Part shown: positions 1,096 to 23,157 of the stretch, piece after piece
Position numbering within the stretch: position 1 is the first letter of the stretch
How the letters are laid out: every line of letters starts with the position of its first letter
Source: a virus
DNA: 37,834 nucleotides
Virus record (IMG/VR): IMGVR_UViG_3300025151_000117
Location: 1-37,834 of that record
Direction: 5' to 3' (one strand)
Position numbers and translations under genes: made by a program
The notes under the pieces: model-generated
Database searches by the model: none
What the model was told of the DNA's origin: nothing
The model's input: only the letters and a program-made list of their open reading frames with translations

Positions 1096-1116
1096 CTTAA
1101 ACCAAACTAAAACAAT

Positions 1117-3647: not shown

Positions 3648-3649
3648 CT

Positions 3650-4260: not shown

Positions 4261-4274
4261 CCATTATCTACATT

Positions 4275-4314: not shown

Positions 4315-4322
4315 AACACTAA

Positions 4323-4499
4323 ATGAAAGAACAAACCATGACACAATTTAAGGAAGCACTCGAAGTAGCAATAAACACACAACAAGAACTAACATTAAGA
4401 AGCCAACCTGAAGCGAACCGAATCCTTATAAAAAGTCTAGGCCAAATATTAAACACACTAAAAGAAAACTTAAAACAACTAGATGGAAATACCCCATAA
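4323..4499 (+). CDS. small charged helical protein (58 aa)
   Basis: This frame starts nine bases after the terminator T tract and overlaps the helicase start by 17 bases. It encodes 58 residues (starts MKEQTMTQFKEALEVAINTQ, ends KENLKQLDGNTP), largely helical with heptad-like leucines in the second half. There is no membrane segment and no known motif. Two in-frame ATGs (4323, 4338) are possible starts. It could be a small helicase-associated factor by position, but nothing in the sequence shows this. Confidence 0.55.
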   Translation: MKEQTMTQFKEALEVAINTQQELTLRSQPEANRILIKSLGQILNTLKENLKQLDGNTP

Positions 4500-6272: not shown

Positions 6273-6275
6273 TTT

Positions 6276-6707: not shown

Positions 6708-6880
6708 CAGCAGAAGAACTCAGAGCAAACACAACCGAAAGGTTGAACACTCGAATCAATATGATTCGTGAAGAATCAAGAACGATATCACATCGTATAG
6801 CCATTCTTGAAGAGCGCCGCAAGGAGCTACAAGAAGAGAAGAAACATTTTAAGTCATTACTAGTCGAGCTTGATAAGTAA
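6704..6880 (+). CDS. small coiled-coil protein (58 aa), last gene of the rightward unit
   Basis: An ATGA overlap couples this frame to the preceding gene. It encodes 58 residues, almost all helical and highly charged (RIAILEERRKELQEEKKHF, then KSLLVELDK), fitting a coiled coil of about 40 residues. Family and function are unknown. A terminator follows about 90 bases downstream. Confidence 0.6.
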   Translation: MTAEELRANTTERLNTRINMIREESRTISHRIAILEERRKELQEEKKHFKSLLVELDK

Positions 6881-6967
6881 TGTATAATTTATGTTTGAGG
6901 TAAGTGGTAACAGTAATGCCCACAAGGTTAAATTCATATTGGCCTAGTTAAATCCTCGAATGTGTGT

Positions 6968-7000
6968 GCCTCACTTGTTTGTACAGCAAGTGGGGCTTTT
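6968..7000 (+). terminator. rho-independent terminator at the convergent junction
   Basis: GCCTCACTTG (6968-6977) pairs with CAAGTGGGGC (6987-6996) with one G-T pair around a 9-base loop, followed by TTTT. The T tract overlaps the last codon of the leftward 1841-residue gene, so the hairpin sits between convergent units. The leftward direction lacks a T run, although the same hairpin could slow leftward polymerase. Confidence 0.8.
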
Positions 7001-10000
7001 ATATACCCAAGGTTTCTCTAGTGATATTGATTGGCTTGCGACCTTCTATTGGTAGACCAAACAGATTGTAGTTCTGTTGGAATGGGTCAGGTAATCCAAA
7101 GAGTTCACCCTCTTGTCTCATTCTTTTTCTCATGAACTTTCTCTGTCTATCTTGTTTGAACTTTCTCATCTCTGGTACTATGTAGTGCATAGTATCATAC
7201 AGTGGTAATGTAGTCATGAATCTTGATTCAATAACTCTCTCGCTCAAGCTACCATCTTTCTCCATGATATCAAAGAATCTATTGAATGCATCAACTGTAG
7301 TTGATATTGGTGCTGGCATGAAGAAGTCAACCATAGCATCTCCATATCCTTCGATCTGTCCTTTGTATAAGAAGTACTTATTGATACCAAGCATACGAAC
7401 ACCTGAGTTAAACATGTAGTCTGTTACATATCCAAGTCTTCCTGATATAACATCTTTGACTAAATCAATAGGCATACCCATTAGCAAGAAGTAGTACATT
7501 AATTTAACCAATGCACCCATACCTTCTTTGAATAATTCAAAGTCACCATTTCGTACACCACTAGCAATCTTATTAAATGATAAGTTTCTAGCAGTATTTA
7601 ATTGTACAATCATGAATGACTTCATGGTATACAACATACGAGCATTTGGGTTTTGCTTCGCAACCAAAGGCATACGAAGTTCAGTCAAAGGTTGATTGAT
7701 AAATAGTTTTTGTACTAATGTTGCTCCGATTAACTCATTCTCTGCTTGACCTCTTTGTTCCGCAGGAGTTTTCATTGCTCGCCAAAATCTACCATTCTCT
7801 CCCGGATTTGTTATCTCATCACTAAGAAGCAAGTTAATCTCTGATTGTATCTTCTTATACTTCTTATTGTTTTCGTATTGTTTCTTGAGTGTACCATCAC
7901 CATTGAATGCTTTGGCAGCCTTTCTGTATCTGTTGTAGTTAGCATCCATTGTGGTGTTCTTCATTATCTTATCTAATGCTTTGAACCCAGTGGCAGTAAG
8001 ACCATAGCTAATAATAGATGCTAGTCCTTTGTCTTTGCTTTGGAAACTTTCTTCAACTAACTTATCGTTGTCTAAAAATTCTTGTACCTTGTATCTCTTA
8101 TCACCAATCATTGATTTAAGGGTGTCTAAGAATCCATTATCATACATGATAAATGGTAAATCATATAGCTGAGATAGTGTTGATGTAAACTCTACCAATA
8201 AATTAAAGTAACTGTATTGTCTAAGGCCAACTAATAGTGGAGCTTCCCTAGCAGTTCTATCCATCAATGCATTGTAGATTTGTGGGAATGTACTATATAG
8301 TTTCTCTTGGTCTACTTCGTTTTGGAATCTAGGGTCATTGGTCAATGCTTGTATTACACGACCTATTGTAGAATTAGGATTGTATTGTACTCTTACATTA
8401 CCACCTTCATTACTTATAGTTGGTTGTGATACACCAGTAAACTTAGCAGTTTCAATGGTTGTAACCATTTCGGTAATGTATCTACCTAATGCTTCCGAAG
8501 GACTTATGTAGAGGTCTACTTCACTATCATCTATCAACTCCTTAACACGAGTTTTAAATGGACTAGGCTTGCCCCTTCCTTGGAATCTTTGGTTGATAAT
8601 TTTTTGTATAAATATTTCTTCCTCAAATGAGTTTGGTTGCAGTGGTGGTATTGGTTTTGGCGCTTCCTTATCTTCAATAAACTGTACTCTCTCTTCGCCA
8701 AACCTAGCTTGTCTTTGTTTAAATACTCTGTTGGCTAGTTTTCTGTTGTTAGTAGAGAACACTTGCTTGCCATCAACTATGATATTATATACAGTACCTT
8801 TTTTCTCTCTTCGTCTTTTGTTCTCAGCAGCAATAGCACTCTTAATATCTTTTACTTGTATGCCATACATCTTAGCAAAGCCCTCTAGTCCTTTCTTGCC
8901 ATCAACAAATCTAGGGAAGAAGTTTTTTGTAAACTCCATCTTGAGTCCTGCTCTTGTAGCTTCAGTATGTAATCCATCAAGCATTGAGCGAACTGCCAAG
9001 TAATCATTTAGAATACCATACTTTCTTAGTAATGAATCTCTTTCTGCAAATAACTCTTGTGCCTCTTGTTCTGAATACCTAGATTTTTCTTGATCCATTC
9101 TAGGACTGAAAGATATAAGTGCGGCAAGTCTGCGATACTCTCGTACATTCTTTTTCTTAACTTTATTAAGAGCCTTAGCCATATTCATACCCACTTGTTG
9201 GTACTGTAATATCTTAAAGTTTCTATCTCTTATGAATGTATTAAATGCTTTGGCTAACTCAGGGTGTATGTTCTCTAGCAACTGACCTACTGGTACTAAG
9301 AAACTTTCTATGTAACCAACTTCTTTGTTAGAGCCTTCTTGTTCTGCTGTCTTCTCTGCATCTTCAATAGCTTCTGCTGGTGATGCAACGGGGTCTCCAA
9401 TCACATCATTTACATTTAAGTAAAGCTCACCAGTGACAGGAGATATTCTCTCTTGAACTTGGTCTATTAGTTTTTGATTTACAGGTCTAGCCTTAGGGTC
9501 TAGCTCCTTCATCAATGCCGCTGAATCAAGAAGTAGTTGTGCTAGTGTTGGGTCAGCTAATACTTCTTTGCCAAATATATTTGCTATATATGATTGGACA
9601 TCTCTGATAAATAATTTAGCAGTTCTGAAAACTTCTCCTTCTCTAAAGATACCATCTGTATCTTGCTTAATATCTAAATTACTTTTAGTGTTCTTCTCTT
9701 GTTCGGAGGTCATACCATAGAAGAACTCTTCCATAACTGCACGAGTTAATTCATAACCTCTCATCAAATGCCTAGGTGATTTAAATTTATAATCTTTACC
9801 ACCATATGCTTCGTCTAATACTTTTCTTTGTTTATTAGTAAGCCTCTTAGACATTGACTCCATCTTAGACTTGTATCCCTCAGTGCCATATCTATTCTCT
9901 AATGCTACTCTAGTCATAGCATGAAGTAACTCATGCCTCATTAGTCTGTCGGCTCTAGCAGATGTAGTTCTTCTGTCTCCATCTAGTAATGTGTCTAAGT

Positions 10001-12524
10001 TAATTACAATCATGTGTTCATCAGGACTGTAAAAACCCATAGCATTTTCTCTGCCTTTTCTTGGTCTGTATTCTACTCTTAACTTTTGACCCCTCTTAGT
10101 TTTAAGTAGCTTGTTTTCTGTTATGTTTCTAAACTTTTTCTCAAGGTAGCTTATAAGACCTGAATGTTCTAGCTCTCTTATTGGGTCTGGTTCAGGAGTT
10201 GGGTCTAACTCCAAGTCTGTTTTGAGAGGTTGCTTTCTTCTAAAGCCAACATCGCTTTCGTATGTTTTGCCATCTTCACTTAAAAATACACCAGCCTTTG
10301 ACTTAGCATAACCATCATCTAAATCCAAATACATTAGTGCATCGTTTCTATTGTAAGGAGGGCTACCTGTGTCGTAGTTGCCTTTAAATACTATTCTCTT
10401 GGCTTTATCATCAGCATAATTTAGCACTAACTCTTTTACTTTTTTGCCAAATTTAAAAAATTCTGTTTTGTTTCCTTTGTCTTTGTCTAACTCTATTGTA
10501 ATAGTGCTATCATCTTCTGTTATCTTTAGAGGTATACCCTTGAAATTTTGTTGAACCTGAGTGTTAAGATCATCTTCAGTAAATGGATTGTCATCAGTCT
10601 CAGTCTCTACCTCTTCTTCTGTCTCTGTTTCTTCCTCTGTCTCTACCTCTTCTTCAGTCTCTACCTCTTCCTCTTGCTGAGTATCTGTATCTACCTTTGT
10701 TTCACTATCTGCTACAAGTGTATAACCTGCATCAGAAGAATATAAATTCTTGTATGACTTCTTGAACTCAGCCTCAGCTTCCTCTCTTGAGTCAGCTTCT
10801 ACTGTACCATACACTTGCTCCCCGGTTTGCTTCGAGAAATACTTAAAGGTGTATGTTTTCTTTGCCTTAGTGTCACCCTTGATTGGTGTTCTCTTGTCTT
10901 CTTTAGTTTCTTCCTTTCGGCTTCTTCTGTATTGCTCAACAAGCAATGCCTGTAAGTCAAGGTTAGCGGCATCTATCTCTGCTTGGTTATCAGAACCTTG
11001 TTCTATCTTCTTTTGTAGACCAAGTATATTATCTGTTACTTCTGAGTCTGTAAGTTCGCCAACTGTTTTATCTACTGTAGATAATTTAAAGTCTTTAGCT
11101 TTGGGGTTTCTTGAATAAAAAGCACCAAGCCCATCTAGTGTAAATGATTGTTCAGGGTCAGAACTATTTGGGTCTTTGTATGTAATAGTTTGTTTGCCAT
11201 CAGGGTCAGTAGTATATCCCGTCATCTCAACGATAGTGGTGTTACCATCTCTGTCGAACACCTCTATCATAGTTGGTTCACCCTCTTGATTACTATCAAA
11301 ATCTTCTATTGTTTTACTAAAATCAAGATTAGGTGTTGATGAATCAATAGCTATCTGTACATCTTTACCTTCTTTCTGTAGGAGTTTCTTCTCTTCGTCA
11401 GTCAATGTAATATCTTGACCTAGTGTAGTTCTAGTAGTGTCACCTGCTACAGAACCTATAGCACCAGTTAGTCCACCTACTGTGAACTCCATGATTCTTC
11501 GACCAAGGGCTTCTCCTGTAATAAATTCTCTGTCACTATCATAGAGATTCTTGGCAATTAAATCTAGTACCATACCATCTCCGATAGATTCTTGTGTTCC
11601 TTCTAATGCACCTCTACCTAGTGCATTTTTTGCAGCAACACTGAATGCAGTCTTGGCAGCTTTCTCAGAAACTTTACCACCTCTAGCTAATGTACCAAGA
11701 GTTTTGTTTATAAAGCTAGGCATACCTGCTACATACTTGAATACAGTAGCATCTAAAGCACCTGCAATACCACCATGAATCATTGAACCAGTTGTAACCA
11801 TGTCTCTTTCGTCTTGATTCATTTCAAGCAATGACTTCTTCATGGTTCTTTCTGCATCAGCAACAAACTCATCTGCTCTGTTCATGAATGCAGTATAGTA
11901 AACTGCACCTGTACCTGCCGCACCACCTAATAATGGGTTACCTGTAGCTAGTGTTGTAGCACCACCAACAGTAAAACCAGCAGTACCATATCCAGCAAAC
12001 TGACCAAGACCTCTAGCCACTTGACTAGCAATAAGACCTAATCCACTTTTACCAAAGTTAGGATCAACATCCAACATCTTAGGTAATCTTTCATCGAAGA
12101 ATCTACCCATATCTTGGGCATGAAGTAATGCTCTTTCTTGTTCTGCGAGCTTCTCTTCGTTTCTCTTTACATAATCTTCGTATGGCGCTCTGTATATCTT
12201 TCTGCCTCGCTCTGTTCTATCAGGTTGTGCATAGTATTCTTCTTCGCTCATTGTTTCTCTAGCAATGAGGTCACCAAATGTTCTAGCACTTTGCTCGTAT
12301 GTCTTACCAAATGTTTCAGAGAATCCAAGGAGTCCTTGTTTAAATAACTCAACGAATGCATTGCCTCGTCTTACTGACTCATCAAATCTATACTGATACT
12401 GTGGATGTTTATCTAATACTTTGTACACCAAAGTATTGTCATCCATATTAGCATAAGTCTCAGGGTCTTTTCTTCGTACCCTTGCTGCAAAAGACTCTAT
12501 AGTTTCTGGAGTGGGTCTCGCCAT
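6999..12524 (-). CDS. giant internal virion/ejection protein with an HExxH metallopeptidase-like motif
   Basis: At 1841 residues this is the largest gene and the last of the late unit. The N-terminal part has Gly/Ala-rich hydrophobic stretches (about 160-210, GLGQFAGYGTAGFTVGGATT and following; a second near 340-360), as in proteins that cross or sit in membranes during DNA ejection. An acidic Glu/Thr/Val repeat lies at about 612-645. RLMRHELLHAMTR places an HExxH zinc-peptidase motif at 864-868, followed about 60 residues later by VMEEFFYGM. A hydrophobic segment, LMYYFLLMGMPIDLV, lies near the C-terminus. Size and position match the large internal proteins of short-tailed phages, which are injected ahead of the DNA; some carry enzyme domains. 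A role as peptidase is inferred from the motif alone. Confidence 0.7.
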   Translation of the reverse strand: MARPTPETIESFAARVRRKDPETYANMDDNTLVYKVLDKHPQYQYRFDESVRRGNAFVELFKQGLLGFSETFGKTYEQSARTFGDLIARETMSEEEYYAQPDRTERGRKIYRAPYEDYVKRNEEKLAEQERALLHAQDMGRFFDERLPKMLDVDPNFGKSGLGLIASQVARGLGQFAGYGTAGFTVGGATTLATGNPLLGGAAGTGAVYYTAFMNRADEFVADAERTMKKSLLEMNQDERDMVTTGSMIHGGIAGALDATVFKYVAGMPSFINKTLGTLARGGKVSEKAAKTAFSVAAKNALGRGALEGTQESIGDGMVLDLIAKNLYDSDREFITGEALGRRIMEFTVGGLTGAIGSVAGDTTRTTLGQDITLTDEEKKLLQKEGKDVQIAIDSSTPNLDFSKTIEDFDSNQEGEPTMIEVFDRDGNTTIVEMTGYTTDPDGKQTITYKDPNSSDPEQSFTLDGLGAFYSRNPKAKDFKLSTVDKTVGELTDSEVTDNILGLQKKIEQGSDNQAEIDAANLDLQALLVEQYRRSRKEETKEDKRTPIKGDTKAKKTYTFKYFSKQTGEQVYGTVEADSREEAEAEFKKSYKNLYSSDAGYTLVADSETKVDTDTQQEEEVETEEEVETEEETETEEEVETETDDNPFTEDDLNTQVQQNFKGIPLKITEDDSTITIELDKDKGNKTEFFKFGKKVKELVLNYADDKAKRIVFKGNYDTGSPPYNRNDALMYLDLDDGYAKSKAGVFLSEDGKTYESDVGFRRKQPLKTDLELDPTPEPDPIRELEHSGLISYLEKKFRNITENKLLKTKRGQKLRVEYRPRKGRENAMGFYSPDEHMIVINLDTLLDGDRRTTSARADRLMRHELLHAMTRVALENRYGTEGYKSKMESMSKRLTNKQRKVLDEAYGGKDYKFKSPRHLMRGYELTRAVMEEFFYGMTSEQEKNTKSNLDIKQDTDGIFREGEVFRTAKLFIRDVQSYIANIFGKEVLADPTLAQLLLDSAALMKELDPKARPVNQKLIDQVQERISPVTGELYLNVNDVIGDPVASPAEAIEDAEKTAEQEGSNKEVGYIESFLVPVGQLLENIHPELAKAFNTFIRDRNFKILQYQQVGMNMAKALNKVKKKNVREYRRLAALISFSPRMDQEKSRYSEQEAQELFAERDSLLRKYGILNDYLAVRSMLDGLHTEATRAGLKMEFTKNFFPRFVDGKKGLEGFAKMYGIQVKDIKSAIAAENKRRREKKGTVYNIIVDGKQVFSTNNRKLANRVFKQRQARFGEERVQFIEDKEAPKPIPPLQPNSFEEEIFIQKIINQRFQGRGKPSPFKTRVKELIDDSEVDLYISPSEALGRYITEMVTTIETAKFTGVSQPTISNEGGNVRVQYNPNSTIGRVIQALTNDPRFQNEVDQEKLYSTFPQIYNALMDRTAREAPLLVGLRQYSYFNLLVEFTSTLSQLYDLPFIMYDNGFLDTLKSMIGDKRYKVQEFLDNDKLVEESFQSKDKGLASIISYGLTATGFKALDKIMKNTTMDANYNRYRKAAKAFNGDGTLKKQYENNKKYKKIQSEINLLLSDEITNPGENGRFWRAMKTPAEQRGQAENELIGATLVQKLFINQPLTELRMPLVAKQNPNARMLYTMKSFMIVQLNTARNLSFNKIASGVRNGDFELFKEGMGALVKLMYYFLLMGMPIDLVKDVISGRLGYVTDYMFNSGVRMLGINKYFLYKGQIEGYGDAMVDFFMPAPISTTVDAFNRFFDIMEKDGSLSERVIESRFMTTLPLYDTMHYIVPEMRKFKQDRQRKFMRKRMRQEGELFGLPDPFQQNYNLFGLPIEGRKPINITRETLGI
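10590..10677 (-). repeat. imperfect short tandem repeats encoding an acidic EEVETEE linker
   Basis: The leftward frame repeats GAAGAGGTAGAGAC-like units that encode EEEVETEEEVETEEETETEE. The array forms a low-complexity acidic linker between the N-terminal part and the peptidase-like part of the 1841-residue protein. Copy number is likely to vary among relatives. Confidence 0.75.
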
Positions 12525-12525
12525 T

Positions 12526-13248
12526 TTAGAACATCGAGCTATCGAATATTGGATTTATTCCTAAATCTTGTGCAGAGGAATCAGGTATTTCTTCTGGTCT
12601 TAAAGGTCTTATAGTTCTTGGTTTTGCCAATGCGCTAACTGTATCATCCCCACTTGGCATCAATTCATTATCCATGTAAAGTCCTTCAGGGTCACCAAGT
12701 ATCATGGTTGCAATAGCTTCTCCTCCTTCAAACTGATTAAAGAATGGACTATCTGGAGTCATGATATATTCTTCTCCATCAAACTTTCTTACTAATACTT
12801 TCTTGCCATCTCTATTTTGGAACTCCATATCATCACTTTCAGCAATGATATCTAAAACTGAAGCATATGTATTGTAAGATGGTCTCTTAGGTTCTTTCTT
12901 TTCTTTGAGTAAATCACCAAATAATACTTGTCCAACAACAGTAGTGTAAGCCTCTTCTCCTAGACCTTCTCTCATATCTTTAACGAATGCTTTACCTGCT
13001 TCATCTGTGTAGGCTTCTCCTAAAACAGTCATAGCTATCTCTGGATTGTTTTCTAGTTTCTGCATGAAGGCATTGTCTAACTTCTTAGCTTGTCGCTTCT
13101 TCTGAAATGATTGTATACCACTTGATAACTGTTCACCAAGTTGCATCATTGCTTGAGCTTCTATAGCCGCGGCATTGGTTAAGCCTTGTGCATATCCACT
13201 ATAATCTAATAACCTTGGGTCTACTCTACTGCCTGCTTGAAATGCCAT
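12526..13248 (-). CDS. putative internal virion protein (240 aa)
   Basis: The gene lies one base from the giant ejection protein start. The N-terminus (MAFQAGSRVDPRLLDYSGYA) and the Ala/Gln/Met-rich helix after it (NAAAIEAQAMMQLGEQLSSG) resemble the small internal proteins encoded next to large ejection proteins in marine podoviruses. The middle is helical and charged; the last 40 residues are Pro-rich and end DSSMF. It has no enzyme motif. The role in DNA ejection is inferred from neighbourhood and composition. Confidence 0.5.
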   Translation of the reverse strand: MAFQAGSRVDPRLLDYSGYAQGLTNAAAIEAQAMMQLGEQLSSGIQSFQKKRQAKKLDNAFMQKLENNPEIAMTVLGEAYTDEAGKAFVKDMREGLGEEAYTTVVGQVLFGDLLKEKKEPKRPSYNTYASVLDIIAESDDMEFQNRDGKKVLVRKFDGEEYIMTPDSPFFNQFEGGEAIATMILGDPEGLYMDNELMPSGDDTVSALAKPRTIRPLRPEEIPDSSAQDLGINPIFDSSMF

Positions 13249-13254
13249 AATAAA

Positions 13255-14766
13255 TTAAAAAAGAAACTCTGCTATACCTCCACCAATTGGGCCACCAAGC
13301 ACATTACCCATCAGACCCATTATGCCTGAGTTATTGGTTGCATTAGCTTGTGCTTGTGCGCCTAATAAACTCGCATCTTGTGACCTTTGTTGCATAGCCA
13401 TATTAATTCCCATGTTGGGGTCAAATAATTGTGGCCCTTGTTGTTGACCTGCTAAATTGTATGCTTGACTATATGCTTGTGTTCCCAATGAACCTGATAA
13501 AGATGGTCTACCAAATAAGAATGCAGTAGGGTCACCACCTGTAGCTCTAAACTGATTGAATGCTTGCCCTAATGCACCTTGTTGTGCTTGACCTAATTGT
13601 GAGCCTAATCGTCTTGCACCCAAGCCCATCTGCCTACCTTGCATACCTGCTGATAGACCTGCTTGAGTTCCTTGCATAGCTTGACTTCCTGCTTGCATAC
13701 CTTGTTGACCAGCTTGTAGTCCCAAACCAGCCATTTGCATTGCTTGTCCTCTACGACCTTGTCGCATAGCTTCAGCGCCTTGTTGCATACCGAACCCTAA
13801 CTGACCTGCATTCATAGCATCTCTAGCTCTTTGAGACCTTTGACTTGCTATCATTCCTTGTTGGTCAGCAGCAAGTCCACCTGCGGTTCGTGCCTCTGAT
13901 CTTAATGCAGACCTAGAAGATTCACGACCAAGTAATTCTTGTGCTAGTGTACCAGCATCTCCTACACGACCACGAGAAGCACCTGCCATTCTTGCAGCTT
14001 GCTCTGCTTCCCTTGCTCTCTCTGGCGATAACCTACCCTCTGACTCTTCATATAAAGTCTCTGCTTGTTTTTGTTGTAATGCTTGTAACTTAGTTAATCG
14101 TGGGTCATCTACACTTGCTTCTGAAGCTAATCGTTGTGCTTCATCTGCTGATAACTGAGATAGCATATCAACCCTTGGGTCAAGGTTCTCAACATTTGCA
14201 CCTAGTTTATCTGCTTCAGCTTGAAAATCTTTTTGTAAACTTTTAAATTCTTCTCTATCTTGCCTAAATCCTGCGACATCTTCATCGAATGCAGTCTCTG
14301 CACGAGCAGTAAAATCTTCTATATCTCCTACTGCACCCATGACACCTGCTCTATCTTCAGCAAATGTGTCAGCCAATGCTCTTGTTGCTTGAGCGGCTTC
14401 AAATGCTTCTGGGTCAGCGGCTCTAACTGCATCTGTATACTGACTACCAAACTGTTCAAGTTGAGCCATCTCTCTTTGCTTTTGCTTGGTATCTTCTTCG
14501 CCTGCAATGTCAGCAGCTCTGCTTTGTAGTTCAAGTAAACCTGCTTGACCATCAATGCCAAATAAAGCAGCTTCTTGGTCGGCTAACTCTAAACCAGTGT
14601 ATTTTGGTCTATACATCGCCTCAGCTTCAAGCAATCTTTGTTGTAGTGCTGGGTCAGTAACACCTTGGTAGTTACTAAATCCTTCACCAAACAAATATTC
14701 ACCCATTGCTTTCCCCGGATCAATAGGGTCTGGCTGATTGATTGTTGTTTTTCCTTTTCCTCCCAT
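13255..14766 (-). CDS. putative internal virion/ejection protein, Ala/Gln/Gly/Met-rich (503 aa)
   Basis: The protein starts MGGKGKTTINQPDPIDPGKA and continues with a long helical, coiled-coil-prone body rich in Ala, Glu and Gln. A Gly/Gln/Met-rich stretch follows (about 330-400, GMQQGAEAMRQGRRGQAMQM and similar), and the C-terminus ends in Gly/Ile-rich hydrophobic residues (MGLMGNVLGGPIGGGIAEFL). This composition is typical of ejection proteins that form a channel through the cell envelope. It overlaps the upstream gene by one base (TAATG). The assignment rests on composition and position, not on a recognised domain. Confidence 0.55.
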   Translation of the reverse strand: MGGKGKTTINQPDPIDPGKAMGEYLFGEGFSNYQGVTDPALQQRLLEAEAMYRPKYTGLELADQEAALFGIDGQAGLLELQSRAADIAGEEDTKQKQREMAQLEQFGSQYTDAVRAADPEAFEAAQATRALADTFAEDRAGVMGAVGDIEDFTARAETAFDEDVAGFRQDREEFKSLQKDFQAEADKLGANVENLDPRVDMLSQLSADEAQRLASEASVDDPRLTKLQALQQKQAETLYEESEGRLSPERAREAEQAARMAGASRGRVGDAGTLAQELLGRESSRSALRSEARTAGGLAADQQGMIASQRSQRARDAMNAGQLGFGMQQGAEAMRQGRRGQAMQMAGLGLQAGQQGMQAGSQAMQGTQAGLSAGMQGRQMGLGARRLGSQLGQAQQGALGQAFNQFRATGGDPTAFLFGRPSLSGSLGTQAYSQAYNLAGQQQGPQLFDPNMGINMAMQQRSQDASLLGAQAQANATNNSGIMGLMGNVLGGPIGGGIAEFLF

Positions 14767-15230
14767 TATGCTTTAAGTAACTTGTTAAAATATTTGGTTG
14801 ATAAATCTACTTTTGTAGGAACTCCATGTCTATGTCTTATTCCTATGAGTTTCTTTATTAATACATCTGGTTCTTTTGCTAATAAATCTAATGTCAATTG
14901 CTTTAATACTTTTCTGTTTTCTGCAAATAAAAAAGCTAAGAATATCGTATCTCCATCTTTTCTATCTTCTTCCCATCCACGAATAAATTCCCAACCATCG
15001 TCATAATTACAATTGTACCACATGTGTACACCCACAACTTCATCACCATCATACATTACTGATATCGTCTTTTTCATAATATGGTAAGTAACCATTGTTG
15101 TGATGACATCTTCACCCCAATCATCGAACACTTTACCATTTTCCTTCCTTATACAATATCCCACAATCTTTTTTACTTCCTTAGGAGTTCCATTTATTTC
15201 CAACCATTTTCTTGTGTAATTAGCTAACAT
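14766..15230 (-). CDS. small protein resembling T7 gp13-type/acetyltransferase-fold internal protein
   Basis: The 154-residue protein has alternating strands and helices: VGYCIRKENGKVFDDWGEDV, MVTYHIMKKTISVMYDGDEV, VGVHMWYNC, then a C-terminal KKLIGIRHRHGVP. Order and size recall the small GNAT-fold-like internal virion protein of T7-type phages, which also sits beside the ejection proteins. The usual acetyl-CoA-binding Q/RxxGxG/A loop is not evident, so catalysis is doubtful. Placement is right after the fibre genes and before the ejection genes. Confidence 0.4.
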   Translation of the reverse strand: MLANYTRKWLEINGTPKEVKKIVGYCIRKENGKVFDDWGEDVITTMVTYHIMKKTISVMYDGDEVVGVHMWYNCNYDDGWEFIRGWEEDRKDGDTIFLAFLFAENRKVLKQLTLDLLAKEPDVLIKKLIGIRHRHGVPTKVDLSTKYFNKLLKA

Positions 15231-15231
15231 A

Positions 15232-16080
15232 CTAAAATTTAATATTCGCAGCTACACAACAACAAGCACTAACTGCATAAATCTCATATGTAATAGCTTG
15301 TGTTGTAGTTAGGTAATCTACACCAACAGCCCCATTGTTTGTGTTAGTTGATCCATTGCTTTGGGTATCTAATTGTGGTATACTTCCTCGAACAGTACCA
15401 CTACCTCCACTACTAGGTTCTCCATGCATAGCACAAAATGTTGCGCCGGGAGTAAAGCAAGGGTCACTAGAAGTAAAGTTTGGATTTGCCGCAGTTGGTC
15501 CTCTGGAGATAACATTTCTATTTGAACCACTAGTAAAGTTAGAAACATTATCTACTTGCCATACTTGTACAGGACAAGTTCCTCTTAGGTCAGACGAAGT
15601 ATTTAAGTCCATGTTTATGGTTACAGAACTCTCATTACCTAAGTTAATCCCAAATACTATAGCCCTTTGACCATCACCATCTCGTCTAGCTCCTGAAGAA
15701 CCCATTTGTGCAGTAGTCTTACCAGATACACTTACAGTAGGGGTAAAGTGAGCATAAGCAGTTTGTTGACCAGCAAACATAATTACTAATCTAGTGTTAG
15801 GGCCAAGTTCTGTAGCATCTGTAGATATAGCATTGGGAAAAACATTAGACCTAGCAGCATTACTTACTGCAAAATCTTGTATTTTAGTAAGTCTTGGATT
15901 ACCAGTTGAATAATAATTTTTTATTTTGTTTCTACCACTAGCTGCTATATCAGCATTAACACTAGTATCATCAACATTACTGCCACCTCTGTAGTATTCA
16001 GACAATTTGTGAGGGCCACTACCACCAAACTGTGAAGCAATCTCACTTAATTTAATTTTTCCACTAGCTTGTAATGGCAT
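15232..16080 (-). CDS. virion structural protein, tail-fibre type (282 aa)
   Basis: The N-terminus (MPLQASGKIKLSEIASQFGG, then LSEYYRGGSNV) carries the IKLSEIA...LSEYYRGG motif found in many phage fibre or virion proteins. A degenerate second copy follows at IAASGRNKIKNYYSTGN. The rest is Ser/Thr/Asn/Gly-rich beta structure, with Cys residues near the end (SACCCVAANIKF). It could be an accessory fibre or cap protein on the tail. The gene is tightly packed between the S74 fibre gene and the gp13-like gene. Confidence 0.6.
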   Translation of the reverse strand: MPLQASGKIKLSEIASQFGGSGPHKLSEYYRGGSNVDDTSVNADIAASGRNKIKNYYSTGNPRLTKIQDFAVSNAARSNVFPNAISTDATELGPNTRLVIMFAGQQTAYAHFTPTVSVSGKTTAQMGSSGARRDGDGQRAIVFGINLGNESSVTINMDLNTSSDLRGTCPVQVWQVDNVSNFTSGSNRNVISRGPTAANPNFTSSDPCFTPGATFCAMHGEPSSGGSGTVRGSIPQLDTQSNGSTNTNNGAVGVDYLTTTQAITYEIYAVSACCCVAANIKF

Positions 16081-16082
16081 AG

Positions 16083-17708
16083 TTACTTAACCTTAGCTTC
16101 AAGCTCTTGTACTTTTGCACTAAGCTCTTTGATTGATTCTATTAGTAATGGTACAATCTTAGTGTACTCAACTTTTAAATATCCTTTTTCAGTTTCCTTT
16201 ACTGCACTTGGTATAATCTCTTGTACTTCTTGTGCAATAACACCGACATCGCTACCAGAATACTTAGACTTATCATTCCAAATAAATGTATTACCACTAA
16301 GTTTGTTTACTTTAGATGTAGCATCTTGGATAGGGAAGATATTATCCTTCAACCTTTTATCAGAGGCTAACGATGCTACCACATCTCCATCTGCTGATAT
16401 ATCTCCTTCTGCATAAATATCATTTTTAGACCTAATTCCTGCTGAAGCACTATTATCTGCATCTTTTGATACATCTTGACCTACTTGAAATCTTAGTGAT
16501 CCACCACTATATATATTAACCTCAGCACCATTTTTACTAGCATTTAAGCTCAAGTTACCGAAATCACTATCTCCACCTATAGTGGGACTAGCACCTGAGT
16601 TATCACTATCATTAAATGTAATTATTGGCGCACTTCCTTGAATGGTAACATTATCTTGGATTGTAGGAATCTTAGAAGCATTTGTTAAGTGAATACCTCC
16701 AGTTACTTGTAGGTCTCCAGAAACTTTAGCTCCTGCAGAAAGAGTACCAGATGAATCCTTACCAGCATCGTGAGCTACACGAAATCTTTCGTGGTATTGA
16801 TTTGAGCCTGAATCAAAATCAGCTGCTTCATTATTAGTAGTCTTTAAAGTAATATTATCTACGGCAGTGCTTATGATATCACTATATGCTTTTAGTACCC
16901 TAGTCTCTATAGTATTTACACTTGAATTTCCAGTTATAAATGAATTAGGTGAGCCAAAATCATCTTGGTCAAAAACAATATTGGGTTCATCACCTATTAG
17001 TCTAAGATGGTCAGCTATAACTTGGTCATCAACATACACATCACCAGTAACATATAAACCACCTGTTACCTTTGCTCCTGCAGCATCATTGCCACCTTGG
17101 TCTTTGGCTACATCGGCTGCTACTGTCAATCCATCTGTACCATTATGTTTTAAAATAACTTCATCGTCAGCATCAATAGTAATATCTGCACCAGTTTTTT
17201 CTGCTAATATTGATAAATTACCATCTTGTGAGTTTCCATTTATTTCTGGTGAAGATCCACTATTACCAGTATCATCTAATATAATCCTTGGCGCAGTACC
17301 ACTTAAAGTCATAGTAGCAGTGCTATCACCAATAAAGTCAGTTTTTGCTATAGTTACTGCATCGCTGTTAATATTATTTGTAGAAATTTTACCTGCGAGA
17401 AGCCCAGTACCAGTATCATTACACTTAATAATTTGGTCAGTTCCTAACACTAAATCATTTGGAGCTGCTGCACTATTGGTTGCATTACAAAGAATAGTCC
17501 TAGCATCAAGGTGCTTAAATTTAGTAAATGGTACTCCATTAGTTCCATCGCCATCTTTAAGTTGTAACTTATTATTAACAACATTAAGTGTAAGGTCATC
17601 AGTTACAGCAGTTAATGGAACTGCTTGATTGACTGCATTGTTCAAATCAGCAGCAGTAACCTGCTCACCTGTTTGAAATGTTTTACCTGTTGTAAATGTA
17701 TTGCTCAT
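16083..17708 (-). CDS. tail fibre with C-terminal S74 intramolecular chaperone-peptidase domain
   Basis: The 541-residue protein begins FTTGKTFQTGEQVTAADLNN, a common fibre N-terminus, followed by repetitive beta-rich segments with Asn, Asp, Ser and Thr. The C-terminal 93 residues form a peptidase S74 domain: SDKRLKDNI from Ser449, GVIAQEVQEIIPSAV, YLKVEYTKIVPLLIESIKEL, then a helical end. S74 domains drive trimerisation of the fibre and then cut themselves off just before the Ser. Here that would be between Ala448 and Ser449. The domain call is firm; the receptor is unknown. The start overlaps the upstream stop by TAATG. Confidence 0.85.
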   Translation of the reverse strand: MSNTFTTGKTFQTGEQVTAADLNNAVNQAVPLTAVTDDLTLNVVNNKLQLKDGDGTNGVPFTKFKHLDARTILCNATNSAAAPNDLVLGTDQIIKCNDTGTGLLAGKISTNNINSDAVTIAKTDFIGDSTATMTLSGTAPRIILDDTGNSGSSPEINGNSQDGNLSILAEKTGADITIDADDEVILKHNGTDGLTVAADVAKDQGGNDAAGAKVTGGLYVTGDVYVDDQVIADHLRLIGDEPNIVFDQDDFGSPNSFITGNSSVNTIETRVLKAYSDIISTAVDNITLKTTNNEAADFDSGSNQYHERFRVAHDAGKDSSGTLSAGAKVSGDLQVTGGIHLTNASKIPTIQDNVTIQGSAPIITFNDSDNSGASPTIGGDSDFGNLSLNASKNGAEVNIYSGGSLRFQVGQDVSKDADNSASAGIRSKNDIYAEGDISADGDVVASLASDKRLKDNIFPIQDATSKVNKLSGNTFIWNDKSKYSGSDVGVIAQEVQEIIPSAVKETEKGYLKVEYTKIVPLLIESIKELSAKVQELEAKVK

Positions 17709-20422
17709 TATTCTGCTTTATTTGTTGATCTAAATGTTTGTGCTGCCGATAGCTTGATAGCCCTTATGCTTGGTTTACCCAATTTGTTTGTAATTATAAA
17801 TTGACCACCATAAGCTCGTTTATTACCTATTCTACCACGAATGGCAATATCTTCACTTGCTGGTAGTGTAGCACCACTATTATAACTTTGTAAAGTTCCT
17901 AGTGTAGTATTAGTATCTAGGTTTTCTGTACTAAAATCTACTTGATAATTTGTAGGGCCAAATATAGGAGAGTCGGATTGTATTTCAAATGAATTATATT
18001 TCTTTCGGTCAATATCATTAAATGTATACATTCTGGTTTTCATCTCACCATCTATTAATATAGAATCAGGCACTGTGCTACCAATTGTTGTAATGACTGT
18101 ATCAAATCCATTCTTAGCATTAGTAGAAAACTCAGCTTCGTTACCTGCAATAAGGTGAACACCACCATCATTGTTAATTGAATAAAGTCCTCTTCTTTCT
18201 CCTTTACCTGCGATAACTAAATTACTGTACTCAAATATAGGATTAGTATTGATTTGGTCTATTGATTCCCATGCCTTAGTTAAGAAGTTGTATACTAATA
18301 AAGCATTGTTGGTGTCAGCATCATCAGCACCGGGAGAGGAATCAAGTGGTACTGCTAAATAATATCTATTATCAAAATAAGCTCCGACTGATTTAGATGC
18401 TAGTCTTTTGTTTATTCTGTCCATTGTGGTTTGTATTGATTCAGACAGAGGTGTTTGACTACCACGAAGATTGTATTCATCTAAGAACTCTAATGAGTAC
18501 ACACCATTATCTGATAAGAAGAATACATTTTTACCAACTTGTACTATAGATTTTCTAGCTAATGCACCAATCTCATTAGTTAATATTTGAGATGATGCAG
18601 TTGATGGATCAGTTGTACCTGATACCCTATGTATAGTATTCTTATTAAATATTAATATAGAGTCTTCTGTAAATGATACAACCCCTACAGTAAAATCTGT
18701 ACTACCCGCATTAAATCTAAATGATGCAAATATTTTATCATAAGTATTGTTGTCTAATATGTCTGATACTATAAGCTCATCGTAAACATTTCTAGAGGCA
18801 TTGTTATTTTCAGGGTCATACTGATATGGTACTATCAATCTTCTTTGATGTAAAATACCAAACTCAGGTGCAGGCATATGTATATATCCAAGGCTTATTG
18901 AAACCTTCTTAGAGAATACAGGTTGTGCCAAATAACTTTCAGCCTCTGTTATATGAGTAGTGGTTTTGTCTGGTTGTATAAAAAACTCAAAACCTGCGGC
19001 TAGTTTTACAGTACCACCAGTAGCAGCACCAGTATTGTTAGTTATGTAAATAGCAAAACTATTTGAATTTATTACCTCAGCAACATAACGATCTCCATTT
19101 ACATTGGCAACAGACATACTTGCTACAATTATGGGGTCACCTACAGAGAATCCATGATTATTTGCAGTAATTACTACTCTATATAAAGAACCATATTCTT
19201 CATTTCCATGAGAGTTATCTCCTATCGCAGCAGTTGCATTTATAGTGTCACCCTCTTCAACTACCTTACCTACAGTAAACTTAGAGCCAATCCTTATTCC
19301 TGATACATTCGTATCATGTAATTCTCCTAAGCATTCTATCGTATCACCAACCTCGTAGTTGTCAGTATTTTTATGAACCACACCTCTGTTTTCAACAATA
19401 GCAAACTCACCTACACTGCAACCTAGCTCAATTGGTTGACTGTATTGACCACTAGGCACAGGTGTAAACTGTGGGTTTTCTCTTACTGTACCACTACCTG
19501 TTGTAGATTTATTTGCCACAAATATTGTACCTACAGTATTACTAGCAGCACCTATTGTACTAAAATCACTAGTACCTACTGTTTGAATCTTATATGTTCT
19601 ACCTGCAACTATTGCAGTAGCGGCTACATCTGCTGTTGTATCAGCATCAACCTTATTGATTGATAGGTCGCACTCTAATGCAGTTTCTCCTTTTACGAAT
19701 AATATTACTTTGTTAAATGCTTGTAAGACTTCTATAGGTTTATTTATATCTGAACCTGTTTGATATGGTATTTCATATGTGGTTGTAGTTAAACTTTGAC
19801 CACTTGTAAATGTACTAGTTTTTATTGCTATCAATTTTGTATTAGAAGCTAATAGTATATAACTTTCATTGTCAGCAGAGTTTGGATCAGAGAATGTACC
19901 TGAACCAAAAATACTAGCAATAGCACCATCTACCAACACTGGAAATACTACAGTACAAGTTGAATCAGTACCATTGGTAAATCCAGTACCTGTTACAACT
20001 AATGTATCATTTGCTCCCTTTTCATAAATGTGTACACCATTAACACCACTAAGGCTGCAATTAGAAATATTAATATATCCATTATTTGGAAAGTTTGCAT
20101 ATGTTGCACTACCACCACCAGAAAAATTACTAATTGTAATTGTTGTTGTGTTTGTTACTGTAATGCTTGTAGTTGTATCATTACCCAAATAAAATGGTAA
20201 AGTTAAAGCATTTACACCTGCGGATAATGGAGATGACTTTACATCAGCACCTATGCGAACAGACCACTCTCCATTTCTGTCGCATCTACCATTCTTAGAA
20301 ACTTCTAAAACACCTTGAGGTAATTGGTCAGGTCTAAGTCTATTATTAAATCCAACAAACCCTGCATCTATATCCTCAAGAGTTCTATCGTCCCTTGCTC
20401 CATATTTATCATACCTAGACAT
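17708..20422 (-). CDS. tail nozzle/tail tubular protein B-like structural protein (904 aa)
   Basis: The N-terminus (ERTLEDIDAGFVGFNNRLRP by type, here DRTLEDIDAGFVGFNNRLRP) and the C-terminal half are typical of nozzle or 'stabilisation' proteins of short tails: LARKSIVQVGKNVFFLSDNG, VYSLEFLDEYN, SVGAYFDNRYYLAVPL, ALLVYNFLTKAWESIDQI. The latter repeats resemble beta-propeller blades. The middle (about 130-470) is an insertion rich in Thr, Ser, Gly and Asn. It would form the distal part of the short tail through which DNA passes. The start follows the stop of a 23-residue frame without a gap. Confidence 0.65.
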   Translation of the reverse strand: MSRYDKYGARDDRTLEDIDAGFVGFNNRLRPDQLPQGVLEVSKNGRCDRNGEWSVRIGADVKSSPLSAGVNALTLPFYLGNDTTTSITVTNTTTITISNFSGGGSATYANFPNNGYINISNCSLSGVNGVHIYEKGANDTLVVTGTGFTNGTDSTCTVVFPVLVDGAIASIFGSGTFSDPNSADNESYILLASNTKLIAIKTSTFTSGQSLTTTTYEIPYQTGSDINKPIEVLQAFNKVILFVKGETALECDLSINKVDADTTADVAATAIVAGRTYKIQTVGTSDFSTIGAASNTVGTIFVANKSTTGSGTVRENPQFTPVPSGQYSQPIELGCSVGEFAIVENRGVVHKNTDNYEVGDTIECLGELHDTNVSGIRIGSKFTVGKVVEEGDTINATAAIGDNSHGNEEYGSLYRVVITANNHGFSVGDPIIVASMSVANVNGDRYVAEVINSNSFAIYITNNTGAATGGTVKLAAGFEFFIQPDKTTTHITEAESYLAQPVFSKKVSISLGYIHMPAPEFGILHQRRLIVPYQYDPENNNASRNVYDELIVSDILDNNTYDKIFASFRFNAGSTDFTVGVVSFTEDSILIFNKNTIHRVSGTTDPSTASSQILTNEIGALARKSIVQVGKNVFFLSDNGVYSLEFLDEYNLRGSQTPLSESIQTTMDRINKRLASKSVGAYFDNRYYLAVPLDSSPGADDADTNNALLVYNFLTKAWESIDQINTNPIFEYSNLVIAGKGERRGLYSINNDGGVHLIAGNEAEFSTNAKNGFDTVITTIGSTVPDSILIDGEMKTRMYTFNDIDRKKYNSFEIQSDSPIFGPTNYQVDFSTENLDTNTTLGTLQSYNSGATLPASEDIAIRGRIGNKRAYGGQFIITNKLGKPSIRAIKLSAAQTFRSTNKAE

Positions 20423-20495: not shown

Positions 20496-20732
20496 TTAGC
20501 ATTTCCATCTACGAAGGGCTAATGCTTTTCTTGTAGGTCTTCCTTTTGAATCCTTCATTGGCCCTTTTACTCCTGACATTCTAGCACAAAAGGATTTCTT
20601 TCTAGCTTTCTTTTTACCAGTAGGCTTAGACTCAGTGACTGGTGGCTTTAGATTAGCACCAGTCTTTCTTTTGAAGTAAGCTCTACCTGCGGCAGTTAGT
20701 CCACCTTTCTTTGACTTATGTTCTTTTCTCAT
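20496..20732 (-). CDS. small basic phage protein, DUF6321-like (78 aa)
   Basis: The sequence GGLTAAGRAYFKRKTGANLK, then PPVTESKPTGKKKARKKSFC, then ARMSGVKG and a C-terminal LRRWKC fits the DUF6321 pattern seen in many aquatic phages. It is very rich in Lys and Arg, so nucleic-acid binding or packaging with DNA is plausible but unproven. The start is preceded by a strong Shine-Dalgarno (AAAGGAGGAAAGC before ATG) and overlaps the upstream gene by four bases. Confidence 0.65.
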   Translation of the reverse strand: MRKEHKSKKGGLTAAGRAYFKRKTGANLKPPVTESKPTGKKKARKKSFCARMSGVKGPMKDSKGRPTRKALALRRWKC

Positions 20733-20968
20733 GCTTTCCTCCTTTTATGTGAGTAAGGGATTCTCTTACTACTTGTTTTGGTTCTTTTAAATTTTGCTTT
20801 CTCTGATGAAGACATCTCTGATTGAGTCTTTGGAGTTTTAGAACTAACTCTCTTCGAGGGTCTGCAAGCGGGATATGCTCTACTGCTACCTTTAGCCGAC
20901 TTTCTTCCACAAGGCTTCCCGGTTTTTACATCTACCCACTTCTCTTGATGCCATCTCCTAAGACTCAT
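20729..20968 (-). CDS. small basic phage protein, DUF5872-like (79 aa)
   Basis: The segment WHQEKWVDVKTGKPCGRKSA, then KGSSRAYPACRPSKRVSSKT, then SEMSSSEKAKFKRTKTSSKR is the DUF5872-type pattern common in marine phages and giant viruses. It has few acidic residues, and the two Cys (in KPCGR and PACRP) could bind a metal. Function unknown. It overlaps both neighbours by four bases (ATGA), so the row of small genes is translationally coupled. Confidence 0.65.
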   Translation of the reverse strand: MSLRRWHQEKWVDVKTGKPCGRKSAKGSSRAYPACRPSKRVSSKTPKTQSEMSSSEKAKFKRTKTSSKRIPYSHKRRKA

Positions 20969-21129
20969 ACCTTCTTTCTTTTATAACCACTAGCAGTTCG
21001 CTTCTTGCCATCTGGCCCTTTGACCTGACCTTTGCAGACTCTTACTGCATAACTGTTGGCATAAGCAGATGGATATACATCATACTTTCTTTTAGCGGCT
21101 GCTTTACCTCTAGCACATAACTTACCCAT
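20965..21129 (-). CDS. small basic phage protein, DUF5872-like (54 aa)
   Basis: This short frame encodes 54 residues: MGKLCARGKAAAKRKYDVYP, then SAYANSYAVRVCKGQVKGPD, then a KKR-rich tail ending KRKKV. The KLCxxGKAAAKRKxxVYPSAYAN pattern is well known among marine phage small proteins. Its start overlaps the stop of the 36-residue gene (TAATG) and its stop overlaps the next start (ATGA). Strongly basic; DNA or RNA binding is a guess. Confidence 0.65.
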   Translation of the reverse strand: MGKLCARGKAAAKRKYDVYPSAYANSYAVRVCKGQVKGPDGKKRTASGYKRKKV

Positions 21130-21239
21130 TAGACTTTCTTTCTTTTAAGAGCTTTGAAGTCAGCACCAGTAATTTTATTTCTTGGTGCGGCTACCCTAGC
21201 TAGTTTCTTTTGTTTAGCACTATATTTACTGAAAGGCAT
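21129..21239 (-). CDS. 36-residue basic protein
   Basis: The frame encodes 36 residues, beginning MPFSKYSAKQKKLARVAAPR and ending ALKRKKV, with a MPFSK...KQKKLAR opening that recalls short basic phage proteins. TAATG overlaps join it to both the 27-residue gene before it and the 54-residue gene after it. It ends in the same KRKKV as the next protein. Confidence 0.55.
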   Translation of the reverse strand: MPFSKYSAKQKKLARVAAPRNKITGADFKALKRKKV

Positions 21240-21322
21240 TAGTATTTTCCTTTCATTACTCTGCGACCCTTGCTTGAGCCACCCTTCTTTTCTCCACAAC
21301 TTCCTTTACCTTTATGTGCCAT
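21239..21322 (-). CDS. 27-residue basic protein
   Basis: An ATG one base after the stop of the PEP-CTERM gene opens a 27-residue frame rich in Lys and Gly (begins MAHKGKGSCGEKKGGSSKGR). The upstream gene's last codons contain AGAGGAG, a good ribosome binding site nine to ten bases before the ATG. Its TAA overlaps the next ATG. Similar MAHKGKG...-type mini-proteins occur in marine phages. Confidence 0.55.
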   Translation of the reverse strand: MAHKGKGSCGEKKGGSSKGRRVMKGKY

Positions 21323-21323
21323 A

Positions 21324-21605
21324 TTATTTTCTCCTCTTTATCATTGTTAATAATAATAATGAAAACCCTAAGACTAATCCATAAAAGGATGGCTCAGGTA
21401 CATTATTGTAATCTACTGAAAGTCTATAATCTACTTCACTCCAATTGTATTCTTTACCTTCGTAAAGTAATCCATCAAACTCACTATATGCCCATTCTGG
21501 TATCGATGGAACATAAAAGTATTTATAACTGGTTGATGTAATACTATCACCCCAACCATAGTCGGAGTCATTGTTAATATCTAGTTCTGAAAATTCGTGG
21601 CTCAT
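21324..21605 (-). CDS. PEP-CTERM-tailed phage envelope protein (93 aa)
   Basis: The last 25 residues form a complete PEP-CTERM sorting signal: V69-P-E-P72, then the hydrophobic segment YGLVLGFSLLLLTMI (about 75-89), then K90-R-R-K93 at the very end. In bacteria this signal is cut by an exosortase in the inner membrane and the protein is passed on to the cell surface. Residues 1-68 are acidic and aromatic (several Tyr, Trp, Asp, Glu) with no known domain. No Sec signal peptide is visible at the chosen start, which is unusual for the class. The start overlaps the upstream membrane-protein gene by ATGA. The gene therefore belongs to a holin/envelope cassette. A phage gene with this tail implies a host that has exosortase. 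Confidence 0.75.
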   Translation of the reverse strand: MSHEFSELDINNDSDYGWGDSITSTSYKYFYVPSIPEWAYSEFDGLLYEGKEYNWSEVDYRLSVDYNNVPEPSFYGLVLGFSLLLLTMIKRRK

Positions 21606-21766
21606 TTTTTAAATAGGGTTGTGAATATTGATGCGAAACTCATAAAGAATTTCTTTATGAAATTGTCCTTTGGTAAGAACATCATTATAATAGATATTAT
21701 ACCAATGTAGGCAAATGCCATAGCCATTAAATCATCTTTGTAATTAGTTAAAATAAATTCTATCAT
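21602..21766 (-). CDS. 54-residue membrane protein, coupled to the PEP-CTERM gene
   Basis: The frame starts in an ATGA overlap with the 264-residue gene and ends in an ATGA overlap with the PEP-CTERM gene. It encodes 54 residues: a polar start (MIEFILTNYKDD), one clear membrane helix (LMAMAFAYIGIISIIMMFL), a short PKDNFIKK turn, and an amphipathic end (FFMSFASIFTTLFKK). Such proteins may be pinholin-like or act as membrane partners. Function is inferred only from position and topology. A run of six A before the TGA could allow -1 slippage into the next frame. Confidence 0.6.
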   Translation of the reverse strand: MIEFILTNYKDDLMAMAFAYIGIISIIMMFLPKDNFIKKFFMSFASIFTTLFKK

Positions 21767-22557
21767 TGTACTGGTGATACTTGTCTTATACTTGAGTGAG
21801 GTTTAATATCGTCACCCATTTGTTCAAATGGTGTTTCTACTATGGGTATAGCATCAGATTTAGCTTCAGATTGCCCTGTATCGCCTTTTGATTCTTCTTG
21901 TGGCTCATCATTAGACTTGACTTCCTTAGGCTCTTCAGTAGGCTCTGAGGATGGATTACTTTCTTTTGATTGTTGCTTTTCTGTTTCTGATCCTTTCGAT
22001 TGTTCAGTATTGGAGGGCTGAGAGGTTTGAGAGGATTTTTCGGAAGACTCATTTTGTGAAGAAGCAGAGGGTTCTTGTGTGGTGTCCGAAGGCGAGGGAG
22101 CTGGTTCAGAAGTCTGTTGTGATTCGGAAGCCTCTGCGACAAAAGTCTGAGCCTCAGCAATCTTCTCAGAAATAACTTGCTGACCCCAATCGTTCAAAGA
22201 AGCGAAGTCCACAAAGTTATCAATAAACATTGGGACTTCAAATCTTTCTTCTATGACATCTTGTGCAACTTCTGCTACAAATATTTCTGTTCTATCTTTG
22301 GCAATATCCACTTGAGTTACTGCCGCAGTAGATACTGCAACTGTACCAGCAGCCCCAAGTTGTGATACTTGAGTTACTACAGGTAAGTCCTTAATTCTAT
22401 CTATAAGAGATTTCTTAAGCGCTTTAGCACCTTCACTAGCAGACTCTTGAGCTTGTTGTATATGCTCGCTAATGTCTTCATTAGGCGATTCACCAAGCAC
22501 TTGGCTGATTGAATCCCGAAGAGTTTGCAGTTCTTTTCTTGCTTGTTTTTTGTCCAT
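21763..22557 (-). CDS. membrane-associated protein with a long Ser/Glu/Gln/Pro-rich tail (264 aa)
   Basis: The N-terminal 60 residues are a charged helix (MDKKQARKELQTLRDSISQV onward). A mildly hydrophobic Ala/Val/Thr stretch follows at about 61-82 (VTQVSQLGAAGTVAVSTAAV), and an acidic domain extends to about 140 (VAEVAQDVIEERFEVPMFID). Residues of about 143-240 are low-complexity, dominated by Ser, Glu, Gln, Pro and Lys, like flexible stalks that span a periplasm or wall. It lies between two holin-like genes and the membrane/PEP-CTERM pair, so an envelope or lysis role (for example a spacer protein) is possible. No family was recognised. Confidence 0.55.
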   Translation of the reverse strand: MDKKQARKELQTLRDSISQVLGESPNEDISEHIQQAQESASEGAKALKKSLIDRIKDLPVVTQVSQLGAAGTVAVSTAAVTQVDIAKDRTEIFVAEVAQDVIEERFEVPMFIDNFVDFASLNDWGQQVISEKIAEAQTFVAEASESQQTSEPAPSPSDTTQEPSASSQNESSEKSSQTSQPSNTEQSKGSETEKQQSKESNPSSEPTEEPKEVKSNDEPQEESKGDTGQSEAKSDAIPIVETPFEQMGDDIKPHSSIRQVSPVQ

Positions 22558-22582: not shown

Positions 22583-22990
22583 TTATTTACTTACTGCTGC
22601 TGATCCAAAGTAAAAGCTGATGATACTAATAACAGCAGTCTTAATCTCTGGTAAAATTATATATCCATGTAGTGTTTGGTATGTTGTACCTTTAACAAAC
22701 CCAAACCATTTACTATATTCACTAGCAACTGTTACACCCTCTTCGCTATGAGCTAAGATGAATGGTGCAATAATTACACCAAATAAAACAGTTAATACTA
22801 TGATTCTTCTAGTCCAAGCACCAAAGGCATCTACCCTAGCTGCTGCTTTATCAGCACTTTCGTCTGATGCTTTTTGTTTTTTAATTAAGCCTTGAGTAAC
22901 TGCTGCTTGATTTTGTACTAATGTGCCAATAAGTTTGAACAAGAAACCACTTGCTCCACCTCCTAGCATTGCTAATAATTCTGTACTCAT
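22583..22990 (-). CDS. holin-like membrane protein (3TM type, 135 aa)
   Basis: Features: an N-terminal Gly/Ala/Leu-rich hydrophobic segment (LLAMLGGGASGFLFKLIGTL), a charged helix (IKKQKASDESADKAAARVDA), a membrane helix (RRIIVLTVLFGVIIAPFILA), a loop, and a final hydrophobic segment (AVISIISFYFGSAAVSK). The order resembles the 3-TM holins described for gene transfer agents and marine phages. It would make inner-membrane lesions that release the lysozyme. Its start overlaps the next holin-like gene by ATGA. Confidence 0.65.
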   Translation of the reverse strand: MSTELLAMLGGGASGFLFKLIGTLVQNQAAVTQGLIKKQKASDESADKAAARVDAFGAWTRRIIVLTVLFGVIIAPFILAHSEEGVTVASEYSKWFGFVKGTTYQTLHGYIILPEIKTAVISIISFYFGSAAVSK

Positions 22991-23157
22991 TTGTCTCCCC
23001 TTCTAAATATATGCCACCAAGCAATAGACAGTGATGCTACTGCTGCTGACAAATGCATTATAATTTGTGCTTCTGTTCCGAAGTCATCCATAGCTACAGT
23101 AACTTGAGTTACTCCTACTATGCTCCAAATTTTAAGATGACTAATGAGTGCTTCCAT
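22987..23157 (-). CDS. second small holin-like membrane protein (56 aa)
   Basis: I place the start at the ATG at 23157, preceded by GGGAGAAGAATAAT, rather than at an earlier in-frame codon inside the neighbouring gene. The 56 residues hold two hydrophobic helices (LISHLKIWSIVGVTQVTVAM and IIMHLSAAVASLSIAWWHIF) with a short acidic loop (DDFGTE) and a basic end (RRGDK). This is class II holin-like topology. The pair with the 135-residue protein may be holin and antiholin; which is which cannot be told. Confidence 0.6.
   Translation of the reverse strand: MEALISHLKIWSIVGVTQVTVAMDDFGTEAQIIMHLSAAVASLSIAWWHIFRRGDK

Follow-up and report, generated by a model that had tools for sequence, protein, structure and literature searches.

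A conserved PEP-CTERM-like membrane protein with an exchangeable tail in a lineage of marine phages

The PEP gene and its neighbours

The window, that is, the whole stretch of DNA analysed here (37,834 nt), is an IMG/VR virus record carrying tailed-phage genes for a terminase, a major head protein, a tail fibre, a DnaB-type helicase, and methyltransferases. Among annotated phages, Phage C75C1 is the nearest to it (70% in the portal, 65% in the head protein). GC and AT skew flip sign near 7 kb, at the meeting point of the plus-strand replication genes and the minus-strand structural genes. On the minus strand, an ORF of 1841 aa (6999-12524) has no match in Pfam or PHROGs, and no endolysin was recognised among the scanned ORFs of the window.

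The gene considered here, hereafter the PEP gene, is absent from Phage C75C1. It occupies positions 21324..21605 on the minus strand (read from 21605 to 21324), a strand left unstated in the original prediction; the plus strand is stop-rich here, and its translation is a PEP-CTERM-like membrane protein of 93 aa. The N-terminal domain (residues 1-68, 21402..21605, minus strand) is acidic and aromatic, with a mean net charge of -11.5 across the family. Its length varies from 55 to 84 residues among relatives of this short family, most of which begin with MSHE. The C-terminal part, all encoded on the minus strand, also reads as predicted: a VPEP motif (residues 69-72, 21390..21401), a predicted transmembrane helix (residues 73-89, 21339..21389), and a basic KRRK cluster at the exact C-terminus (residues 90-93, 21327..21338). 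Residues 69-93 thus display the tripartite layout of a PEP motif, a transmembrane helix, and a basic cluster. In the AF2 model of the short protein (pLDDT 59), the only confident part is a helix spanning residues 72-92.

The absence of an N-terminal signal peptide, which the original prediction had flagged as odd, proved to be a real departure, since 97% of bacterial PEP-CTERM proteins carry one (PMC1569441). By hydropathy, none was found in the window protein or in the short family (45 distinct relatives): ahead of the motif, no 15-residue stretch in the whole family has a mean above 1.06, compared with an average of 2.5 on the Kyte-Doolittle scale for the best 15 residues of the helix. An in-frame signal peptide upstream of the ORF was ruled out by nearby upstream stops and the lack of any hydrophobic stretch. 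There is also no lipobox, as no cysteine lies near the N-terminus.

The PEP gene is the last of a cassette whose order, p135-p264-p54-PEP, is conserved across relatives, and a PEP-type gene follows p54 in every contig that has p54 and enough downstream sequence. All members lie on the minus strand. The product of p54 (21602..21766) is a 54-aa protein with a single transmembrane segment by hydropathy; its stop overlaps the PEP start as ATGA, and this junction, TTTAAAAAATGAGCC, is kept in most relatives. A frameshift fusion of p54 with PEP, which could have supplied an N-terminal membrane segment, was rejected in view of the ATGA overlap and of the K-rich, predicted cytoplasmic end of p54; it is also contradicted by relative L041, in which two other genes lie between p54 and PEP. 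The p264 gene (21763..22557), always present in the cassette, encodes an acidic protein that has a stretch of weak hydrophobicity (peak hydropathy 1.23) and a low-complexity C-terminal half rich in Ser, Glu, Gln, and Pro, whose length varies between relatives. That p264 might span the periplasm is only a guess. Neither p264 nor p54 has a family match in PHROGs or Pfam. The p135 gene (22583..22990) encodes a membrane protein of phrog_38283, common to Verrucomicrobia phage P8625 and Phage C75C1. It is preceded by a gene for a 56-aa small membrane protein (22987..23157), whose start was set at an internal Met of a 74-aa ORF; P8625 likewise has a small transmembrane gene before p135. Hydropathy and this position suggest a holin-like function for the 56-aa protein. 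Just after the PEP gene, on its downstream side, lies a series of tiny ORFs rich in Lys, Arg, and Gly (27-79 aa; 20496-21322, minus strand), which recurs in relatives and in Phage C75C1. Some relatives have an extra 135-aa ORF (MNAKEYAQKRVDDKLLGYKIR...) between p264 and p54 (L011:8740-9147, L042:9436-9843), which looks like a possible degenerate metalloprotease.

Conservation and exchange of the tail

Two scans of IMG/VR yielded 42 contigs with the PEP gene, and a third scan, via the neighbouring p135, added 16 more with divergent forms. Together these relatives comprise 45 distinct proteins on about 58 virus contigs and represent a group of marine phages known only from uncultured material. 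The motif [VI]PE is kept in all 45 and [VI]PEP in 42 of them, while the net charge of the tail is +2 to +4 in 41. Codons for the motif differ synonymously: the first Pro is encoded by CCA in 29 proteins, CCT in 12, and CCG in 4, and the Glu by GAA in 26 and GAG in 19. Pairwise dN/dS of the gene is 0.04-0.22, which, with the synonymous variation at a constant motif, indicates purifying selection on the protein, motif included. The PEP ORF is a genuine gene, and the motif is among its conserved parts. The expectation that related phages would hold the same gene in the same place, with its motif, helix, and basic end, is supported. That the likeness arose by chance, in an ORF that is random or does not code, might have been suggested by the failure of the window protein to reach curated profile cut-offs, but it is hardly credible for a gene found in the same position on about 58 contigs with such dN/dS values and an invariant motif; conservation refutes it. 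Three relatives (L034:4151-4519, L037:2204-2551, L041:10001-10381) run 17-30 residues beyond the basic cluster; these extensions are amphipathic-looking, K-rich, and sometimes carry a CxxC pair, and they do not form a canonical PEP-CTERM end.

The tail also moves between proteins. The window protein and its relative from contig L007 are 96% identical up to and including VPEP, after which their helices are unrelated (SFYGLVLGFSLLLLTMIKRRK versus ADAGFVGAVLVGIFVAFCYFKNKKGK). Moreover, in 34 contigs the PEP slot is occupied by an unrelated protein of about 205 aa, which starts like a signal peptide, continues with a beta domain, and closes with IPE[P/L/M/V/S], a helix, and K/R residues. Profile comparison of the short and long families aligns the tail alone (31 columns, probability 91), and in three contigs (L086, L205, L206) the long domain ends in the short family's A-type tail. 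On these comparisons, the tail (motif, helix, and basic end) is a swappable module that this slot pairs with either of two unrelated N-terminal domains. The AF2 model of the long protein (mean pLDDT 67, pTM 0.59) has beta-sandwich domains as fold neighbours, including the subtilase jelly roll, collagenase and pre-peptidase domains, and a calpain C2-like domain. With Z at most 8.8 and Foldseek E values no better than 4e-3, these matches are read only as pointing to a beta domain of extracytoplasmic type, and to nothing narrower. Among host proteins, a search of 132 genomes for homologues of the long domain gave one weak match (E 0.003).

Likeness to PEP-CTERM signals and the probable hosts

PEP-CTERM/exosortase (EpsH) sorting is described by the profiles TIGR02595 and PF07589, with PF09721 (Haft 2006, PMC1569441). 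Against the curated models, the window protein falls short of both cut-offs (8.1 versus 16 bits for TIGR02595; 14.6 versus 20.7 bits for PF07589), but two of its relatives score higher: L044 exceeds both cut-offs (21.4 and 21.8, respectively) and L040 that of TIGR02595 (17.5). The profile check thus succeeded for these two relatives and failed for the protein on which the prediction was based. A profile built from the PEP-CTERM tails, picked by Pfam, of one Opitutae MAG only gave 11.0 bits for the window protein and 33.7 for its best relative; the margin for the window protein is thin, as 2,824 other phage ORFs reached at most 9.3 bits and 1,800 shuffled tails at most 9.7. A wider profile raised the window protein to 25.9 bits, a value that is partly circular given that this profile includes tails found by likeness to L044, and under it neither the B-type tails nor those of the long slot proteins stood out from the controls. 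Weak matches to BppU-like_C and to full-length floc_PepA were below cut-off and were set aside.

From these scores, tails of the short family appear to range from host-like to drifted. The claim that the tail is a PEP-CTERM signal therefore stands in part: the tripartite layout is there and two relatives pass, but strict PEP-CTERM identity is not kept throughout, many relatives having B-type or extended tails and the slot protein having IPEL or IPEM. Since the window protein has the tripartite tail but lacks a signal peptide and stays under the cut-offs, we call it PEP-CTERM-like rather than file it as a member. It shares with PEP-CTERM proteins the C-terminal PEP motif, transmembrane helix, and basic cluster, a tail that moves between unrelated domains, some relatives over curated cut-offs, and a resemblance to Opitutae tails. 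It differs in being encoded by phages and known here from sequence, in belonging to a short family devoid of signal peptides, and in the drift of many of its tails. In the accessible part of the literature on phages or viruses together with PEP-CTERM or exosortases, no description of a phage-encoded PEP-CTERM substrate was found, an absence that is only suggestive.

Several observations bear on the hosts. The p135 family is common to phages of the window's kind and to Verrucomicrobia phage P8625 (PMC4642752). Two contigs of an Opitutae MAG (G003) are relevant: one (L048) resembles P8625, and the other is of the window's own kind (portal 67%, terminase 64%). The window methyltransferase gene (1117-2187, plus strand) has 74% DNA identity to another stretch of this MAG, and a protein relative of the methyltransferase is carried by L048; this likeness suggests that phages infecting related hosts exchange genes. 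The same MAG encodes two exosortases, and 14 of its tails exceed the PEP-CTERM cut-off. Exosortase genes occur in 93 of the 132 genomes of its order, and the L044 tail matches 65 of these 132, with 42-72% identity among the matches listed. In the order to which a Rhodobacteraceae MAG belongs, the same tail had no match among 121 genomes, an empty set that had no positive control of its own. In that Rhodobacteraceae MAG (G002), the contig of a relative has p135 with no cassette after it, and no exosortase was found; nor was one found in a Rickettsiales MAG (G001), whose contig stops right after p135. The PEP gene was not found on genome contigs, no convincing CRISPR spacer turned up when window positions 1-19900 were compared at DNA level with 384 genomes of the class, and no phage-encoded exosortase was present in ten records. 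The hosts are likely marine Opitutae (Verrucomicrobia), in which exosortases and PEP-CTERM proteins abound. The evidence is indirect and amounts to support rather than proof, because a MAG may include viral contigs that were binned wrongly. The predicted link to an exosortase-bearing host is accordingly supported at the level of the probable host group only.

Possible roles of the PEP protein

In the accepted model, a PEP-CTERM protein crosses the inner membrane through Sec and is held there by its C-terminal helix, and the exosortase then takes off the tail and sends the protein outward, often together with exopolysaccharide (PMC1569441, PMC12188702). We tentatively propose, at a little under even probability, that the phage protein is an envelope protein with an Opitutae-like signal of PEP-CTERM type that the host exosortase handles as a substrate. 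It would probably be made late in infection, with its tail inserted in the inner membrane so that the motif is periplasmic and the basic end inside. Exosortase would then cleave at the tail, and the acidic domain would be passed to the outer layer or to exopolysaccharide, while the cassette as a whole would act on the envelope late in infection. A late envelope role is favoured because the gene neighbours others for small membrane proteins on the strand that carries the structural genes. The long slot protein starts like a signal peptide, so that its motif should face the periplasm, and by analogy the motif of the short protein would do so too. Insertion with the N-terminus out has a precedent in filamentous phages: the Pf3 and M13 coat proteins insert through YidC, and Pf3 has a translocated N-tail devoid of a signal peptide (PMC9360617). 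Like these coats, the PEP protein is a small phage membrane protein; unlike Pf3, it has a longer and very acidic N-domain, it does not come from a filamentous phage, and its insertion route is deduced.

Because the short protein has no Sec signal, two topologies can be envisaged, and the main rival is N-in tail anchoring. The protein may be a plain inner-membrane anchor, perhaps belonging to an envelope or lysis module, with exosortase uninvolved today and [VI]PE either acquired once from host PEP-CTERM genes or serving as a helix-start motif. We regard this as a serious possibility, if somewhat less than an even one. The missing signal peptide, the window protein's scores under the curated cut-offs, and the drifted tails of many relatives (B-type, IPEL/IPEM, or extended as in L034, L037, and L041) all speak for it and against a substrate; in addition, a transmembrane helix this near the C-terminus suits tail anchoring. 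The failure to find the PEP gene on genome contigs, a convincing spacer, or a phage-encoded exosortase also counts against a substrate. Yet an anchor does not need [VI]PE, which is invariant in the short family and also retained by the unrelated long proteins of the slot, part of the family has host-like tails, and an N-in topology would put the basic end outside, against the positive-inside rule. The protein could instead be a decoy, a short pseudo-substrate that binds exosortase and blocks the sorting of host surface proteins while itself going undelivered. This is unlikely: its small size, strong conservation, and host-like motif would suit an inhibitor, as would the relaxed third motif residue of the long slot family (IPEL, IPEM, IPES), which could hinder cleavage, but the cargo seems to matter, given that the acidic and aromatic N-domain is conserved and that the slot can also house a separate beta domain of 205 aa.

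The conserved sorting-type tail suggests, short of proof, that the phages use or block the host exosortase pathway. For an exosortase substrate, help in lysis or release is slightly ahead of superinfection exclusion as a possible gain to the phage, the data not separating the two, and blocked surface decoration may be a further one. The cassette resembles phage lysis cassettes with holin and spanin genes in that late-region genes for small membrane proteins stand beside a holin-like one; it differs from them in that the PEP protein lacks a lipobox and that p135, p264, and p54 match no spanin or holin family (PHROGs, Pfam), the likeness being positional only.

The broader proposition is that a marine phage lineage, which probably infects Verrucomicrobia, makes substrates or pseudo-substrates of exosortase whose swappable tail is borne by two unrelated domains; we consider it evenly balanced. 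If true, it would be a first example of viral entry into, or blockage of, exosortase/PEP-CTERM surface sorting, and the short form would be a PEP-CTERM protein working in the absence of a Sec signal peptide. As tails have been exchanged between two unrelated domains in one slot, what exosortase recognises could be tested with few constructs, and the family would offer a natural probe of the motif, the helix, and the need for a signal peptide. It would also give marine Verrucomicrobia phages a route by which to change the envelope of their hosts.
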